This document shows, piece after piece, positions 52,661 through 60,873 of a stretch of 64,000 nt of DNA; the first letter of the stretch is position 1, and each line of letters opens with the position of its first letter. The DNA is taken from positions 1 through 64,000 of the IMG/VR virus record IMGVR_UViG_3300030491_000004. The stretch is one strand, 5' to 3'. The DNA comes from a virus. The position numbers were made by a program, and so were the translations under genes. A model generated the notes under the pieces. The model ran no database searches, was not told the origin of the DNA, and saw nothing but the letters and a program-made list of their open reading frames with translations.

Positions 52661-54856
52661 TTATACTATTTCTACTAATGAATTTTTTGCAAACTGTAAA
52701 GTATTTTTTCTGGAGAATTCACTAAATCTTATGTTAAACACTCCTACCATCATCTTATTCTTTACATCGCTTATTTTACCAGATCTATTGAACATACTCC
52801 TAACTTGCATCCACTCATCATTCCATATTACAAGTTCTGCGATCGTGTTGTTTTGCTGAAGTAATATCTTACAATAATCTTTAGCTTCTCCGGACTTTTT
52901 GTCTATATATTTTTTCTCTTCAATATCAGCTATAGAAGAGAGTATGATTCCTTTTTTCCCATCATATCTATCTTCTAATGCCATCTCTAAGGTAACCCAT
53001 CCGGCTCTTGTTTTAAGTTTGTTCTTGATCTCCATTCCATCATAAATTCTTTTATAATCAATAGAACCAAGACCACTCACAGCTATTTGTTTTTGGCTCC
53101 AGAAGTAATGTTTTTGAATAGCTTCTTCTGGAAAATCCGCGTCTTTTATTTCAAATTTAAGTATATCCGAAGCTCTATTCAAAAGATCGTACCTTTCAAC
53201 AACCGATAGGACGTGTTCGATATTATCAAAACATCCGGCTAGTATTAGGTTCTTTACATGAAGAGTGTTTACTGGACATTTTTCAGACTCACCGGAGTCA
53301 TTTGGATCATCGTAATATTCTGTTTTCTTAAGTTTGTATTTGAATATCCTTTCTAAGAAATTTTCCAAAGAAGTAAATTCTCCTCTTTTTTCTCTTTCGG
53401 ATATAATAAACTCAATAGTCTTAACTCCAACCTTATCTATCCTAGAGAAAGACCAAAATATTTCATTTAGTTTATAGTCAGTATGAAAGTCTTTTTCAGC
53501 ATTATTTATATCTGGAGGAACGATCTTCGCATCACTACAAATTTCCATCTCACTAATTAATGTAGGTATATTTTCTTTATTAGCCCATTGTAAAGCTACT
53601 GTGTAAAACGCTAATGGATAATGCGCTTTAAGGTACGCACTCACATAAGCCATAGAAGAATATGCTGTGGCGTGTGATTTGTTGAATAGGTACGAACCTC
53701 CAGCTTCCATCATTTCCCATATCTTATCAGCATCTTCTTGCGGACATTTATTATTTTTGGCACCTTTCATGAATTTATCTTTCATGGCCATAATTTTGTC
53801 TACCTTCTTTTTGGAAATAAATTTTACAAGCTTAACTCCTTCACCTAAAGAAAATCCTCCAACCTCTCTAGCTATTCTTGCCAAATCTTCTTGATAACAC
53901 ATTACACCATAAGTATCTTTCAACGCTTCATGAGTACCCCACAAATATACTGGAGTATCATCACCGAGTTTGCAATCTACATATTTTTGTGCACTGCCGA
54001 AAGTAAGTGTAGCTGGGCGATAAAGTGCGTTGGCTGCTGTTAAGTCGTTTATATTTTCAGGCTTAAGGTCGATCAAGAATTTTGTTATTCCATTACCGGT
54101 AAACTGGAAGACATCGTTTGTAAAACCATCCTTTAATAATTCATATGTTTTAGGATCGTCCATATTGCCTGTAACAAGTCCTTCAAGAGACACTCCGGCA
54201 TTATAGGTTGAATTACATATCTTCATTATTGATTGGAGTTTAGACAATTCTTTTGTTGCCAGCACATCGTTCTTCAACAATCCCTGATCATCCAGTGACC
54301 CGCCATCAAATTCAGATATTAGAACACCGTCAATCTTTTTTATAGGAGTATAATCAAAACACTCCATATCTTTTCCGTTTCTATAATCAGGAGTAACCAA
54401 TAGGGCTGAGGCGTGAATAGAAGAAGATCTTGGAGAGTTCATCAACGTCCTTATGTCTTCTATCACTTGTGGAAAATCCATAATAAAACCCTTAACTCTA
54501 GGGTTTACGGCAGCCATCTTAAATAAGTCGGTCCAAGTCATTTTATCATCATCAAATATTTTGGTGATGTATTTAACCGTACTTACAGGAACTCGGTATA
54601 TTCTGGATACATCGGTGATAGCTGCTTTTATTTTCAAAGTAGTAAAGGTGCCGGCAGAAAATACCCTTTGCTTTCCATCATGATTATATCTGGTTTCAAT
54701 ATATTTCTTTACATCTTGCCGTCTATCTGATTGGAAGTCGACATCCACATCCGGCAATGATCCAGACTCACCTTGTAAATAACCACTGTCAACATACATA
54801 TCTAGTACATTGACAGGGTTATTTGATGTTTTTTGTTTAACGCTTACTACTTTCAT
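52661..54856 (-). CDS. dnaE: DNA polymerase III alpha, C-terminal half (split gene)
   Basis: This 731-aa product has the catalytic PDVDVDFQSDRR (residues 35-46), FQFTGNGITKFLIDLKP, a VMCYQEDLARIAREVGGFS thumb/palm motif, FNKSHATAYSSMAYVSAYLKAHYP, and a C-terminal OB fold. Residues 1-30 (KVVSVKQKTSNNPVNVLDMY...) do not belong to DnaE proper; they resemble the C-terminal half of a Hint/intein-like domain. The N-terminal half of the enzyme is the 56168 gene. The two products must associate, or splice, to be active. Confidence 0.85.
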   Translation of the reverse strand: MKVVSVKQKTSNNPVNVLDMYVDSGYLQGESGSLPDVDVDFQSDRRQDVKKYIETRYNHDGKQRVFSAGTFTTLKIKAAITDVSRIYRVPVSTVKYITKIFDDDKMTWTDLFKMAAVNPRVKGFIMDFPQVIEDIRTLMNSPRSSSIHASALLVTPDYRNGKDMECFDYTPIKKIDGVLISEFDGGSLDDQGLLKNDVLATKELSKLQSIMKICNSTYNAGVSLEGLVTGNMDDPKTYELLKDGFTNDVFQFTGNGITKFLIDLKPENINDLTAANALYRPATLTFGSAQKYVDCKLGDDTPVYLWGTHEALKDTYGVMCYQEDLARIAREVGGFSLGEGVKLVKFISKKKVDKIMAMKDKFMKGAKNNKCPQEDADKIWEMMEAGGSYLFNKSHATAYSSMAYVSAYLKAHYPLAFYTVALQWANKENIPTLISEMEICSDAKIVPPDINNAEKDFHTDYKLNEIFWSFSRIDKVGVKTIEFIISEREKRGEFTSLENFLERIFKYKLKKTEYYDDPNDSGESEKCPVNTLHVKNLILAGCFDNIEHVLSVVERYDLLNRASDILKFEIKDADFPEEAIQKHYFWSQKQIAVSGLGSIDYKRIYDGMEIKNKLKTRAGWVTLEMALEDRYDGKKGIILSSIADIEEKKYIDKKSGEAKDYCKILLQQNNTIAELVIWNDEWMQVRSMFNRSGKISDVKNKMMVGVFNIRFSEFSRKNTLQFAKNSLVEIV

Positions 54857-56178
54857 AACGCCAAGGTTTCTTCGATTTTACCGTATTTGTTATTAGCTTT
54901 TTTGTACTTTTCTTCAAAGTCAAGCAAAGGTTGGTCTGGAATAATCATATCTTTTTTTATAAACGAATCAGAAACAATACCTTCCAAAGATCTGCATCTA
55001 CTTAAAGCAACGTATAGTTGGCCCGGACAAAATGCGTGCGACATATGTAACGAAACTTTATTAAACGTAAGACCCTGGCTTTTATGGATGGTAATAGCCC
55101 AAGCCAATGTTACTGGAAATTGGACACAACTTCCAATCTCTTCTTTAGTTATTTCTCCGCGTACAGACGAATATTTAAAATTACTCCATTTACATCTGGA
55201 CACATTCACCAATTTGCCGTTATCTAATTTAAGTAATATTTCAGAAGGCTTTATCTCCATTATTACCCCAAGTGTTCCGTTAGAATACTGTTTTGCTGGA
55301 TCATTTACAAGTGTCATTACCTTTGCGCCTTTACGAATAGAAAGAACTAAATCGCATGGAGCAGCATTTTTAGGAAAATCTCCAGTAACATTTGCTTTAA
55401 ATACATCGGTAGGAACACCAAGCTTTTCTGAATTTATAGCTTCAACATCTCTTTTATAGGTGCATATATGAACGTATTCATTGTCAAAATCTTGACTTAT
55501 TTTACGATCACGCGCCTCATCCAATATTTCTAACTGATCTCTGGAAACATTATATTCCCTTATACTGTTTAATATGGAAATAAAATTTGGATCCGATTGT
55601 CTGAATATGTGAGTTAATTCAATTACATTAAAAAATGATTGATATTTAAACACCCAAGAGTTGAAGAAATAAGTATTCGTATAGAAAGCGTCCAGTATAG
55701 CCTTATCTTCAGATTTAACTACTGGAGGTAATTGAAATAAATCTCCAAACATTACTAGTTGCATTCCACCAAAAGCAAGACTTGATCTTCTTATTATTTG
55801 AAGTTTTTTGTCAACATAATCGAGTAGATCTGATCTTACCATACTTATCTCGTCAATTATCAAAGTGTCTAAATCTCTTAGAAGATCTATTTTTTCTTTC
55901 TTCATTCGTATCTCCTCAATTTTACCGGTAGGAGGTATCGGTCCGAATGGAATATTTAATAAACTGAACAACGTAACTCCACCAGCATTTATAGCTGATA
56001 TGCCGGTAGGTGCTGCGACTACACATTTCTTATTTGTATGCTCCATCAAATACTTCAAAAGAGTGGTCTTTCCAGTACCAGCCTTTCCAGTAATAAATAC
56101 ATGTTCCTTAGTATTACACACTATATCTAAGGCTTTGTTCATCTCTCTTGTTAATTCTAGTTCCATATTAAATTTCAT
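54853..56178 (-). CDS. Pif1/RecD-like SF1B helicase lying between the two dnaE halves
   Basis: This 441-aa product has Walker A FITGKAGTGKTTLL (about residues 30-43), the Pif1 motif VVAAPTGISAINAGGVTLFSLL, Walker B IIDEISMV, GDLFQLPPVV, and the C-terminal ITIHKSQGLTF and YVALSRCR motifs. These are 5'-3' helicases used in fork movement and recombination. Its gene overlaps dnaE-C by 4 nt and dnaE-N by 11 nt, so it occupies exactly the position where an intein would carry its homing endonuclease. Confidence 0.9.
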   Translation of the reverse strand: MKFNMELELTREMNKALDIVCNTKEHVFITGKAGTGKTTLLKYLMEHTNKKCVVAAPTGISAINAGGVTLFSLLNIPFGPIPPTGKIEEIRMKKEKIDLLRDLDTLIIDEISMVRSDLLDYVDKKLQIIRRSSLAFGGMQLVMFGDLFQLPPVVKSEDKAILDAFYTNTYFFNSWVFKYQSFFNVIELTHIFRQSDPNFISILNSIREYNVSRDQLEILDEARDRKISQDFDNEYVHICTYKRDVEAINSEKLGVPTDVFKANVTGDFPKNAAPCDLVLSIRKGAKVMTLVNDPAKQYSNGTLGVIMEIKPSEILLKLDNGKLVNVSRCKWSNFKYSSVRGEITKEEIGSCVQFPVTLAWAITIHKSQGLTFNKVSLHMSHAFCPGQLYVALSRCRSLEGIVSDSFIKKDMIIPDQPLLDFEEKYKKANNKYGKIEETLAL

Positions 56179-57871
56179 TTAAAGTAAATAGTACATCTCT
56201 GTTATCAAATAAAATATCATCATCTTCTTTTAACTCACTAGCTTCAATTTCTAGTGGTTCTTCAACTCCATCTCTATTAACTAATAAGATGGCATCATTA
56301 GCTATCTTGTATTTTTTATTATTTGACAAGGTAACTTCTGTATATTCTTTAACTTCAATATCTTCTCCAACAATAGTTGTTTTTGATGGATACAATCCAG
56401 CACGTTCCGGAAGAAGAAATCTTTCAAAAATTAAATCGTATTTTATTGGATCTATTAACGTTATACCTAAAAGATATAACACAAGACAACCACCGGCAGA
56501 TCCACGCCCTGAACCGACAAGTATATCGTTAGCGCGTGCCCAATTGACAGTATCATATTGAACAAGCATATAATCCAGATTATTAGTGGATTCAAGAACA
56601 TATATTTCATAATCTAACCTTTTTTTATATATTTCCTCTTTTCCTTTTGGAACGAGTTTTTTAAATCCATCATCTAACAACTGGAGAAACATACTGTGTT
56701 GATCTCCGTATTTTTCTATTTCTTCCGGTGTCATGTCGTATGCTGGCATGAAGTTGTGCTCAGTATCAAAACTAGCCTTAGCACCATTTAAAATAGAAAC
56801 CGTATTATCACAAGCCATTTCAAAAATACTATTAACATCATGTTTTGAATGGTCAAATAACCCATCTAGCAAATCATACTGCTCATCCAAATCTTTGAAA
56901 TATTGCCCAAGACTTTGTTCATGAGACGCACCTGAAGCGATTTTGTTAAGTATTACTTTGTTTCTTGAATCGTCTTTATCCAAATAATAACAATCTGTTA
57001 TCAATATTGGAGAAACATCAATGTCTTCATTATCAAAATAATACTTAGTCGCTTCAAGTACTTTTATGTCTATTCTTTCTGATTTGTATTCAGTTAAATC
57101 TAATTGATAAAAACAATCAATAAATTTATCATAAAACAAATCAATATTTTCTCCAAGTGACTTAAGCCAATATGAAGAATATTTGTCGAACACTATCACA
57201 TTACCCGGACCATATTTAAGCAAATCCTGAATGTCTATTGTTTTATCTTGCGAATCAACATTTATTGCTTTTTGAATCCTGAGTAAGTTTTGCAATCCGT
57301 CTTGTGATTGCACGTATATTTTTGCTCCTACTTTATTTTCTCCGTCTGTAAATATAAGAGAGTATCCAAATATAGGGGTTACTCCAGATTTTTTGCATTC
57401 TTTCTGCAATATTAAATGTGATGCCATTGTATTGTAATCACACACTCCTATTCCAGATTCTCCTAAATACTTAGCCTTTTTAATCCAATCGCCTATAGAA
57501 AAACTACCATTCAACAGTTCAAATTGTGAATGTATTCCCAGATTTACAAACTCTCTGGAATGTTTTAGTGATGGCGTTTTGCCAACGTATTTAAGTATGT
57601 TGAATTCAAACTCCTCGCGAAGATCGTAATAATAAAAGTTATCTCCAAATTTAAACGCAATATAATTTATATCTTCTTTCATTAATGAAGAAGTACTCTC
57701 CATAGAATTGAACTTAACTTCTTCATTTTCATCAATTCTAAATATAGAATGTAGTGAGTCAGTATCTTCATAAAAAACTTTTCCAAAGTCCTCTATCTCA
57801 AATACTTCATTATCTATTACGTGATATTGTATTTTATTATTGTTCAACCACGCTAAAAGTTCTTCGTTCAT
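56168..57871 (-). CDS. dnaE: DNA polymerase III alpha, N-terminal half (split gene)
   Basis: This 567-aa product has a degenerate PHP domain (HSQFELLNGS, ICDYNTMAS-like) and VGSGRGSAGGCLVLYLLGI, ending the DnaE-like part at LIFERFLLPERAGL (about residue 493). The last about 74 residues (from YPSKTTIVGEDIEV to the stop) contain TEVTLSNNKKYKIANDAILL and ASELKEDDDILFD, resembling the N-terminal half of a Hint domain but lacking a Cys/Ser at position 1 and the TxxH. The polymerase continues in the 52661 gene. Confidence 0.85.
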   Translation of the reverse strand: MNEELLAWLNNNKIQYHVIDNEVFEIEDFGKVFYEDTDSLHSIFRIDENEEVKFNSMESTSSLMKEDINYIAFKFGDNFYYYDLREEFEFNILKYVGKTPSLKHSREFVNLGIHSQFELLNGSFSIGDWIKKAKYLGESGIGVCDYNTMASHLILQKECKKSGVTPIFGYSLIFTDGENKVGAKIYVQSQDGLQNLLRIQKAINVDSQDKTIDIQDLLKYGPGNVIVFDKYSSYWLKSLGENIDLFYDKFIDCFYQLDLTEYKSERIDIKVLEATKYYFDNEDIDVSPILITDCYYLDKDDSRNKVILNKIASGASHEQSLGQYFKDLDEQYDLLDGLFDHSKHDVNSIFEMACDNTVSILNGAKASFDTEHNFMPAYDMTPEEIEKYGDQHSMFLQLLDDGFKKLVPKGKEEIYKKRLDYEIYVLESTNNLDYMLVQYDTVNWARANDILVGSGRGSAGGCLVLYLLGITLIDPIKYDLIFERFLLPERAGLYPSKTTIVGEDIEVKEYTEVTLSNNKKYKIANDAILLVNRDGVEEPLEIEASELKEDDDILFDNRDVLFTLNEI

Positions 57872-58911
57872 AATTGAATTTTATTTAATTTATATTCCCT
57901 TGGTGTTTTTATGTTTAAAGAAAAAGTATCGTACGCTTCCCAGAAATCCATATCATCAAAATCATGACTGGAGTCTTGAATATCTGCTATATATACGTCA
58001 AAATAATCATTTAGTTGATCTGCTGTTTTGTTTATAGCGTTCACGGCATCTCCATCGTAGCCTATGACCACCGTACGTACACCTTTAGACTGTATCTTGT
58101 ATATTTGTATGTCAGATATTTTCTTTCCAAATGTGGCCACTACAGCTATCCTGTGGTTGTTGTACAAATTGAACTTTCTTATAAGAGACATGCAAGTAAA
58201 TATTCCCTCAACTATTATAACTGTGTCGGTTTCATTTTCTATTATTGAATCGTAATTATACAACAGCTTTACAAATTCATTTACTTCATTACTATTTTTA
58301 TACCTGGGTACTTGATATTTCCCAAGTATTTTCATTTTGTGATTATATTTCTCAATCTCTTCTTTGGACCATATATGTCTACCAATATAACCCACACATT
58401 CTCCAGCATCAATTATCTGAAATAAAACATAGTCGTCAAATTTAAAGTTTAATCCTCTAGTGGTTCCTACTGGAAATTTTAAATAATCTATTGGAGTAAA
58501 TCCACGGCTCTTCAAATAAGCGTTTTTGCGAACAGTTTTGAATCCTTCAGGCATCTCCACAATCTCCAAAGAATCATCTATCTCATTTGCTTTATCTAAA
58601 AAATCTAGCGGAGTAGAGGAATTCATTTCAGCAAAGTCAACAATCTCTTCAGGGATAAGGTCTGTTCTATTTATATCCCTGAGTAGTTGTTCTATATCTC
58701 TCACAGATTTTCCACAAGAGAAACAGTGAGACATAAATGGTTTTTTCTTTTCGGTTGGAGGTCCGATATATATACCAAATTTACCCCCCTCATGTCCGCA
58801 ATACGGGCATATAGGAACCACCAAATTCTTTCTTCCGCCATCAATAGTGGCATCTAATTCGATAGTTAATTCAGATATTAAAGACTCTGACTCTTCTTTA
58901 TTAAGTTTCAT
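57868..58911 (-). CDS. DNA primase (DnaG type)
   Basis: This 347-aa product has an N-terminal CHC2-like zinc ribbon (Cys35, 38, 63, 66) and a TOPRIM domain with VIIVEGIF (Glu) and VVIGYDGDAVNAI (D-x-D). It makes RNA primers on the lagging strand. The length is short for DnaG and lacks a long C-terminal helicase-binding part. It overlaps dnaE-N by 4 nt and the helicase by 1 nt. Confidence 0.85.
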   Translation of the reverse strand: MKLNKEESESLISELTIELDATIDGGRKNLVVPICPYCGHEGGKFGIYIGPPTEKKKPFMSHCFSCGKSVRDIEQLLRDINRTDLIPEEIVDFAEMNSSTPLDFLDKANEIDDSLEIVEMPEGFKTVRKNAYLKSRGFTPIDYLKFPVGTTRGLNFKFDDYVLFQIIDAGECVGYIGRHIWSKEEIEKYNHKMKILGKYQVPRYKNSNEVNEFVKLLYNYDSIIENETDTVIIVEGIFTCMSLIRKFNLYNNHRIAVVATFGKKISDIQIYKIQSKGVRTVVIGYDGDAVNAINKTADQLNDYFDVYIADIQDSSHDFDDMDFWEAYDTFSLNIKTPREYKLNKIQL

Positions 58912-60278
58912 TATGCGGCTGATTTTCTAACAATAAGTCTTATTGATCTTCGCCTATCATAGAAAGCTTCATGGTCATAATCGGTAGCTATTTTAAATGT
59001 AGGTTCACCACGTTTAAAGAACCTAGCTTTCGCGATATGAATTCTCATAACATTCTCCTTTCTTTCGTTGTCACTTTGATTAAGTGTTATAAGATGGGTT
59101 ACCGGTCTTGACAATCCTTTTGATTCAGACATATTGTATTCGGTTAATACATTCGTTTCATCATTAAGCCATTCTCTGTTTTCAATAGTTGTTTGGTAAG
59201 TAACAACAACCCAAGCATTTATCTCTTCAGCTAACTTCTTTAAATCCTGTGCGACAGCTATTCTTTTAAGCCTTTCTCCTTTTTCACTCCACTTTCTACC
59301 ACTTGAATCAGTACACAAATCCCCAGAATCAATTATTATAATACTGGGGTATTCTCCATATACCTTGTGATATTTTTCTATTTCATTCTTGATATTACTT
59401 GTTGGTACGTCTCCAGTAAAAGCCTTATAAGCCTTAACCTTTATGCTCCCAGCCATCTTTTTTATGATTCCTATAGAATGATCCATTTCATCATTAGACA
59501 AATCGCCAGTTTCATATTGGTAAGATGTGCATCCAACTAATGAAGCCGAATAAGCATCAAGTACCTCTTTTTGCTTACCCTCTAACTGGAAATGGAGAAC
59601 ATTTAATCCATCCTCAAATGCTGCACACTTGCCTATCCATCTAGCTATATGTGATTTACCAACTCCAGTAGAAGCAGCTAGATAAGTAAGTTGACCCCTC
59701 AAATCTCTGCCTTTATTTAAAGCATCCAACTGATCTATATAAAATCTAGTAACCGGTGGAAGTTTAGAATTTCCAGAACATGCTTCTTTATTTTTAGCAT
59801 ATCTGGAAGAAAACGTCTCGGCTACGTCCGTAAAGTCTGTTTTAGAAAATCCAAAATTTGATTTCCATTCACTAAAATCATCAAAGACTTTCATGGCTTC
59901 TTCTTCTTTCTTTTGAGCCTGGAACTCTCCCATTTCTTTTAGTGCTTGATGAAACTTTACTTGTTTAATATATTCTTCAAATTGCTCTAAGATAATTTCA
60001 GGCTCTACATCTGTTGAATAATCTCTTATGTCGTCCAATAAAGAGCTAACCCCTCTATTTGTGGAAACCATTTGAGACATTACATTTGGTGTAGGAGCCA
60101 TTCCATGCTCTTTGTAGAATTTTGAAATATAATTTTGTAAAGAAATAAAATCCCTGTCCGGAAGGTAAGAAGTTTCCATATAAGAGCACATAATACTGCA
60201 AACATTATCATGTTCCATGCAGCACCGGTATAGCTCATAAAGGAAGTCTTCAGTTAATAAATTAGCATTATTTTTCAT
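58911..60278 (-). CDS. DnaB-like replicative helicase
   Basis: This 455-aa product begins at ATG 60278 (an upstream TTG is not needed). It has the helicase-loading N-terminal region and RecA-type ATPase: Walker A LAASTGVGKSHIARW (about residue 205), ILHFQLEGKQ, Walker B IIIIDSGDL, and later motifs. As the fork helicase it acts with the adjacent primase. It overlaps the upstream gene by 11 nt. Confidence 0.85.
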   Translation of the reverse strand: MKNNANLLTEDFLYELYRCCMEHDNVCSIMCSYMETSYLPDRDFISLQNYISKFYKEHGMAPTPNVMSQMVSTNRGVSSLLDDIRDYSTDVEPEIILEQFEEYIKQVKFHQALKEMGEFQAQKKEEEAMKVFDDFSEWKSNFGFSKTDFTDVAETFSSRYAKNKEACSGNSKLPPVTRFYIDQLDALNKGRDLRGQLTYLAASTGVGKSHIARWIGKCAAFEDGLNVLHFQLEGKQKEVLDAYSASLVGCTSYQYETGDLSNDEMDHSIGIIKKMAGSIKVKAYKAFTGDVPTSNIKNEIEKYHKVYGEYPSIIIIDSGDLCTDSSGRKWSEKGERLKRIAVAQDLKKLAEEINAWVVVTYQTTIENREWLNDETNVLTEYNMSESKGLSRPVTHLITLNQSDNERKENVMRIHIAKARFFKRGEPTFKIATDYDHEAFYDRRRSIRLIVRKSAA

Positions 60279-60873
60279 GTTCTGCTCTTTCAAGTCTAAT
60301 TCTATATAATTCTGGAAAGGTTTCTCTCGTCATTTCCTTGCATTTATCAACATTATTGCATTTGTTACAGGTAGGAGAAAAAGGACTCCACCCTAATGTA
60401 GATGTCGAACAAAGAAAATAACCCGTTGGAGAATTGAAGAATCTATTTTTAGCAACCTCTTCAGATTTCATGTAAATATATTCTTCTAGTGGGTGAGTGG
60501 CAGCTTTTTCTATTAAACTCAATAAAGAAGATCTAGTTAAATCAAATGATTGTAACCATTTGTCTTCAATATAGGATTTGCCCTTTGAAGACATTTCGGT
60601 GTATTTTTTGATAGCCGTATCTCCGAATGACGAAATTGATAATTGTTGTTGCCATTCGGAGTTTTGGTTTTTATGTGCCTGGAAGATACAATAATCCACC
60701 ATTCTTGAATTATTCATTTCTCCGCCACATATAACTGAAAACTTATTTACAAATTTGGATAATTGCTCTATCGCCTTTCCTCTTTCTGGGAATTTGAATT
60801 TGGGGTCTATAGTAGTTTTAACTATCTTGGAATAAACCTTAACAATATCCTTAATCTGTCTTTTTGTTTCCAT
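60268..60873 (-). CDS. Unknown protein with Cys cluster in replication operon
   Basis: This 201-aa product is helical with a Cys-rich C-terminal part (CSTLGWSPFSPTCNKCNNVDKC). Its place just before the DnaB-like helicase gene suggests a helicase loader or accessory, but no loader motif was found. Confidence 0.5.
   Translation of the reverse strand: METKRQIKDIVKVYSKIVKTTIDPKFKFPERGKAIEQLSKFVNKFSVICGGEMNNSRMVDYCIFQAHKNQNSEWQQQLSISSFGDTAIKKYTEMSSKGKSYIEDKWLQSFDLTRSSLLSLIEKAATHPLEEYIYMKSEEVAKNRFFNSPTGYFLCSTSTLGWSPFSPTCNKCNNVDKCKEMTRETFPELYRIRLERAEHEK

Follow-up and report, generated by a model that had tools for sequence, protein, structure and literature searches.

A probable splicing-dead split intein beside the active site of a two-part phage DnaE, with a helicase gene between the halves

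In the first 64,000 nucleotides of a 66.8-kb virus record (IMG/VR IMGVR_UViG_3300030491_000004; hereafter the window), the polymerase DnaE is encoded by two open reading frames (ORFs) on the minus strand, 56168-57871 (DnaE-N) and 52661-54856 (DnaE-C), with a helicase gene between them. DnaE-N ends with a tail, and DnaE-C begins with one, that insert-free relatives lack. The tails are very probably the two parts of a split intein that can no longer splice; they would hold together a two-chain polymerase, and the helicase would sit in the place of the endonuclease. Sequence comparison established that the gene is split at a conserved position, that both tails are homologous to an intein at the same site, that all splicing residues are lost and that the cargo of the gap is interchangeable.

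The split gene and the origin of its tails

DnaE-N (567 aa) contains PHP and the N-part of PF07733, and DnaE-C (731 aa) contains the remaining PF07733, the fingers (PF17657) and HHH_6. The cut runs through the Pfam domain DNA_pol3_alpha itself: the N-half covers profile positions 4-99, and the C-half covers 93-260. The N-half proper (PHP and palm N-part, residues 1-490, ...GRGSAGG...FERFLLPER; 56402..57871) matched 1,191 phage records. The break lies just upstream of the catalytic PDVDVDF (54734..54754), which in the alignment with unsplit insert-free relatives directly follows the relic C-intein and its +1 Ser (SL-PDVDVDF); the rest of the C-half (palm, fingers, HhH; PF07733 93-260, PF17657, PF14579) occupies 52661..54733. 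One insert-free relative, Chryseobacterium phage MA9V-3, is uninterrupted across the site (GRVGKSLPDIDNDI). Compared with such relatives, the window carries an additional 77 residues following LPER and another 32 ahead of SLPDVDVDF. The N-tail (residues 491-567; 56171..56401) reads AGLYPSKTTIVG...ELKEDDDILFDNRDVLFTLNEI, and the C-tail (54761..54856) reads MKVVSVKQKTSNNPVNVLDMYVDSGYLQGESG. The Pif1/Dda-type helicase gene (minus strand, 54853..56178; PIF1 PF05970, E 5.7e-29; phrog_325, Dda-like helicase, E 9.9e-78) overlaps the end of DnaE-N by 11 bp and the start of DnaE-C by 4 bp (ATGA). The ORF coordinates and the Pfam and PHROG matches agree with an earlier note, made from the sequence alone, that had described this arrangement; its count of about 74 residues after LPERAGL was exact to the stop codon, and 34 residues were counted where it gave about 30 before PDVDVDF.

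The split is not due to chance or assembly error, since it recurs in the cultured Bacteroides phage BS-TP1, whose gap also holds a helicase, in the phages Cellulophaga phi13:1 and Tenacibaculum Larrie, where the halves are adjacent, in dozens of IMG/VR contigs and in Bacteroidales genomes.

Intact split inteins at the same DnaE site point most decisively to an intein origin of the tails. A DNA pattern for HN-(S/T/C)-x-PDxDxD, run on 2.9 million viral contigs, retrieved seven stretches (L347-L353), all of them DnaE; since several are near-identical, they represent two to three sequence types. The pattern had no match in bacterial and archaeal genomes. Inserted before PDxDxDF, the seven stretches have what appears to be an intact split intein, in which every canonical residue is present (C1...SPNH / M...DHTF...HN/SFPDIDSDF, the last slash marking the insert boundary, as below). 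Their C-halves start with their own Met and read MKIKSINKRILDQSIQLIDIGVEQDHTFFVSDKLDGTYVLTHN/SFPDIDSDF or close variants, and the N-half, recovered in L349-L352, ends with CLLPTTYVLA...EDGTILTSSPNHLWIVIREGKEIEVRADEIRETDEFIKML-stop. The gap in L349-L352 contains a PD-(D/E)xK-like ORF of 290-320 aa with a zinc finger and YTPDF..VELKG, called endonuclease-like by motif inspection and weak Pfam similarity, in the position where the earlier note had expected a homing endonuclease. According to the alignment, the window and L349-L352 are split at the same point.

Profile comparisons connect the tails to these inteins. Using hhalign, window-type N-tails matched same-site N-inteins with 96% (E 2.6e-9) up to near the N-intein end, and C-tails matched same-site C-inteins (MKIKSINK...LTHN) from residue 1 with 77% (E 2e-5), while an unrelated negative control gave 0.5%. 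Furthermore, PF14890 (Intein_splicing) matched the window's own insert at E 7.7e-4, under the Pfam cut-off. When the N-tail profile was compared with 177,635 PDB sequences, the top four matches were all inteins (E 0.004-0.024). These matches and a structural model place a half-Hint beta-domain at residues 507-554 of the N-tail (56210..56353). The model, an AlphaFold prediction for the homologous unsplit insert of relative L129, had a mean predicted local distance difference test score (pLDDT) of 84-95 for residues 41-90 (blocks of ten). In a Foldseek search against 350,542 chains, its best nine matches were all inteins or hedgehog autoprocessing domains, and it superposed on 2jmz and 4o1s at 1.6-1.7 A across 42 columns. 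Across 21 sequences, tail residues G2, L3, A54, L57, D61, D66 and D69 are invariant. The suggestion that both tails are Hint-like held for the N-tail on its own, by profile and by fold, whereas the C-tail was related to the Hint superfamily only by way of the same-site intein.

Several observations weigh against this interpretation. BLASTP of the window N-tail directly against the intact same-site N-intein gave no match; such comparisons of single tails are too weak, and the link between tail and intein therefore rests on profiles. The C-head profile found no intein among the PDB sequences. With a longer, 385-aa model, Foldseek returned DnaE and noise only and no Hint match; a second AlphaFold model, built on a purer alignment, succeeded for the N-tail only and left the C-tail undocked on it (pLDDT <45). 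Taken singly, the Foldseek E-values for the L129 domain (0.09-0.5) are weak, a consequence of its length of only about 42-50 residues, and yet nine Hint proteins among the nine best matches of a predicted fold are hard to ascribe to chance. Finally, the association of the halves, with the tails as a dimerisation joint, is a prediction.

Alignment with the intact intein bore out that the N-terminal Cys/Ser, the TxxH motif and the terminal His-Asn are missing in the window. Intein residue 1, which is Cys1 in L350, corresponds to Ala491 (LPER/AGLYP), and the block B motif SPNH of L350 is replaced by ANDA (524-527). In the C-tail, the block-F His is lost and the terminal His-Asn is changed to Ser-Gly just before Ser33 (...DSGYLQGESG/SLPDVDVDF), with the +1 Ser retained. 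Most of the first Hint subdomain is deleted (77+32 residues versus 99+43 in L350), and the full two-subdomain fold is absent. The window thus has neither the nucleophile at position 1, nor the block B (T/S)xxH, nor the C-terminal His-Asn of a functional split intein. Because Cys1, both histidines and His-Asn are all gone, splicing is not expected, and the intein appears to be without remaining splicing chemistry.

Relatives and the proposed two-chain polymerase

In every split relative, the insert is broken at the identical position, after a strand ending with (E)GD(D)I and before the start MK(V/I)..I. Among 139 dereplicated DnaE cores, a sample biased by the searches and classified automatically, 62 were insert-free, 11 had a short insert of 11 residues, 6 had an unsplit insert and about 52 were split; in 8, the N-half was not seen. 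On a tree of the cores, made by a quick method and with some long branches, the insert state changed at least 12 times and the split state 9 times at one site. We read this as an element gained and/or lost repeatedly at one DnaE codon, as a mobile element would be. Unsplit inserts, for which the earlier note had proposed a survey, were found in L129, L094, L143 and L317; therefore, the tails can be accommodated in a folded polymerase.

The gap cargo also differs between relatives. A helicase is the commonest (about 30 loci before dereplication); other loci contain an N6/N4 DNA methylase, in some cases accompanied by HNH, or else HNH by itself, GIY-YIG, a GH16-like protein or small genes, and in about 20 relatives the gap is empty. 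The endonucleases found there are HNH (PF07463/PF13392) and GIY-YIG. Thus, the idea that an intein captured a helicase fits the window and describes one outcome only, since relatives have nothing, a methyltransferase, HNH, GIY-YIG or other genes in this place.

We propose the following history. A split intein whose gap housed a homing endonuclease would first have been present between R490 of DnaE-N and S33 of DnaE-C, immediately ahead of PDVDVDF, as it still is in L347-L353. In the window lineage, the residues needed for splicing and the greater part of the first subdomain would have disappeared from it, and a replication helicase would now hold the endonuclease place. DnaE-N and DnaE-C would remain separate chains, and the half-Hint N-tail and the short C-tail would fold together into a noncovalent clamp that brings the two palm pieces together. 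The dead intein would then probably serve only to hold the DnaE halves together. The overlaps between the genes suggest that translation of the N-half, the helicase and the C-half is coupled. Dependence of the two-chain polymerase on the clamp would then explain why the relic persists, and a gut-phage polymerase would consist of two proteins because an intein inserted next to its active site and then lost splicing. The same-site inteins and the profile matches of both tails support the earlier idea of an ancient intein that no longer splices, with a helicase in the place expected for the homing endonuclease.

Alternatively, these polymerases could have had an old single half-Hint or another Hint-like small beta-domain before the split, which, like the true inteins, would have come later to the same hot spot. 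In the most compact unsplit inserts (L143, L094, L317 and L076), which consist of a half-Hint and a short strand without block A, the first subdomain is indeed not recognisable. We consider this order of events unlikely, since active split inteins occur at the identical boundary with the identical split point, the N-tail of the Bacteroides group retains a block-A-like start, the C-heads match C-intein residues 1-23, and the insert is scattered over the tree like a mobile element. Furthermore, a sister clade (L042, L061, L128; RCGLSW...) retains Cys at position 1. This Cys could also speak for noncanonical splicing or cleavage by the tails, resulting in one covalent polymerase; with the block-B His, the block-F His, the terminal Asn and, in the window, also Cys1 gone, we regard such a reaction as very improbable. 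Ordinary gene fission, with the tails as unrelated, drifting read-through peptides made by gene insertion, has precedents in the gene-in-pieces polymerases and reductases without inteins of T4-like phages (PMC2988022), and has hardly any chance of applying here, being already contradicted by the same-site inteins and by tails that are conserved (seven invariant residues in 21 sequences), foldable and homologous to split inteins.

Some further features were observed in the window and its relatives. Directly upstream of DnaE-N, primase-like and DnaB-like genes (window 57868-60293) form with it a compact replication operon, as in BS-TP1. In L057, L061, L311 and L370-L372, the DnaE C-half probably contains a further insertion (intein, intron or endonuclease), because its matches are 400-850 nt longer than usual. 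The C-half of L007 harbors a separate mini-intein near YSFNK/C...TCN/SHAAAY, with Cys1 and TGNH and ending with Cys-Asn instead of His-Asn. Bacillus phage KLEB27-3 (L009, 4657-5666) showed a distinct DnaE split, located elsewhere and with an HNH endonuclease; an HNH scan yielded few additional DnaE loci.

Frame breaks at the catalytic codon

Ten relatives have a C-tail that is out of frame with the DnaE core, and the frame changes exactly between the SLP(D/V) and the catalytic Asp codons. The window itself has no bypass-like element. At this SLP/DVD break, the ten loci have 7-43 extra bases, mostly 7-8 nt. Candidate bypass elements, in which a near-perfect hairpin is combined with 7-8 extra nt and a stop that follows the take-off codon, are found in L035 (position ~6100; the same as L357, Bacteroides sp. 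224), L036 (6100), L037 (3870), L121 (6030), L003 (7985), L051 (5985) and L139 (7060). The junction reads ...GGC TCC CTG CCG TAA ggtcg GAT GTA GAT in L035, CCG TAG gg CCG GAT in L037, GTC TGA cg GTA GAT in L139 and GAC TAG c GAT in the eighth locus, L081. In the two longer-gap loci (40-43 nt), both GIY-YIG-linked and with matched codons on either side of the hairpin, we found GAT-37 nt hairpin-GAT (L007, 990-1040) and CCT-40 nt hairpin-CCA GAT (L288, 3955-4000).

The 45 nt upstream of the break have folding energies of -17.7 to -27.3 kcal/mol (mean, -22.1), compared to -7.9 +/- 4.0 kcal/mol for the same 45 nt in 145 in-frame relatives, only 3 of which reach -17.7. In L035, L036, L037 and L121, all 40 of 40 cells of the stem pair, with two compensatory changes; this support for pairing is modest because it comes from only four sequences. 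At the C-tail end of L061 and L127, a hairpin is present in frame, without a stop or extra bases, and is possibly a precursor or a reverted state of the bypass element.

Just upstream of the break, eight of the ten loci carry an endonuclease, which is HNH in L003, L035, L036, L037, L051 and L121 and GIY-YIG-like in L007 and L288. In L081 there is no endonuclease upstream, and in L139 a helicase was identified in the gap. The near-identical phages L036 and L027 share about 97-99% identity on either flank; between these, 659 nt in L036 (5454-6112), comprising HNH, C-tail and element, stand as one block in place of 98 nt with the plain C-tail in L027 (6008-6105), and strong identity resumes at the catalytic GAT codon. 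This replacement looks like a homing event, which is its likely cause. In L033 and L034, which bear an endonuclease without the element, the SLP codons are altered (SCG, TMS), consistent with self-protection.

A sequencing error was rejected as the cause of the frame break, which affects the same codon in ten loci from unrelated assemblies, including the isolate genome L357. A group I intron was rejected as well, gaps of 7-43 nt being too short. The cores of L036 and L121 are 96% identical, with nonsynonymous (dN) and synonymous (dS) divergence of 0.021 and 1.28 and a dN/dS of 0.016; this strong purifying selection despite gaps of 7 versus 8 nt indicates that the core is expressed and that the exact frame is unimportant. 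A pseudogene was rejected on the basis of this ratio, and the records contain no second C-half. A plain +1/-1 frameshift is unlikely, since L036 needs +1 and L121, with its nearly identical core, the other frame. Re-initiation would require a start codon; most loci have no ATG, GTG or TTG in the core frame from the preceding stop up to the catalytic motif, the exceptions being L036 and L003 with ATG or TTG. As in T4, reading the downstream ORF in all ten loci requires departure from the frame at a take-off codon beside a hairpin. Together, these features suggest programmed ribosome bypassing in the ten relatives, although the matched codons could instead be a by-product of how the insert arose. 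With moderate confidence, we propose that endonucleases beside the split DnaE bring a bypassed hairpin element to SLP/DVD, in a recurrent, horizontally moving family beyond T4 gene 60 that is tied to the decayed split-intein clamp of a two-chain replicase.

Significance and comparison with known systems

At one codon, the relatives provide a near-complete series: no insert, an apparently active split intein with an endonuclease-like ORF in the gap, a dead split insert with an endonuclease, helicase or methyltransferase, dead adjacent halves, and an unsplit insert. The series allows a direct test of what becomes of inteins once splicing is lost, and it suggests that a replicative polymerase can gain a protein-protein joint from a selfish element. 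If true, the bypass-like elements would mean that T4 gene 60 no longer stands nearly alone and would provide cultured systems in which to study ribosome hopping, such as Bacteroides sp. 224 (L357).

Fractured genes, with split inteins and free-standing endonucleases, were reportedly described by Dassa et al. in 2009. In these, as in L349-L352, the host gene is broken inside a split intein and an endonuclease gene lies in the gap. The window shares the break at the canonical split with another gene in the gap; in contrast, its gap gene is a helicase and not a homing endonuclease, its intein cannot splice, and the halves must act as separate chains. We regard the locus as a new variant of this arrangement, with a dead split intein at the DnaE active site and a helicase in the endonuclease place. 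The cyanobacterial split DnaE inteins (Ssp and Npu DnaE) are also broken in the same part of the Hint fold, but they use another DnaE insertion site and are splicing-competent.

Split phage replication enzymes that reassemble are known from Aeh1 nrdA/mobE and from gene 43A/43B of phages 25 and 44RR, and the split polymerase is active (PMC2988022). Like the polymerase proposed here, these are replication enzymes in two chains after gene splitting, but they have no intein-derived joint, and the polymerase belongs to a different family. In T4, an HNH homing endonuclease splits a replication gene in gene 39/mobA/gene 60 (PMC3014915, PMC5009743), and gene 60 is bypassed with a stop after the take-off codon, a matched landing codon and a 5' stem-loop, a case called apparently unique in 2010 (PMC3014915, PMC5009743, PMC11194080). 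It is the closest described case: the DnaE relatives share its hairpin, the stop after the take-off codon, a matched or near-matched landing codon and the frame change, and the 37-40 nt hairpin gaps of L007 and L288 are near it in size. Here, in contrast, the gene is DnaE, the window has no such element, the relatives would skip mostly 7-8 nt (40-43 in L007 and L288), and the window's group has Bacteroidales as hosts.

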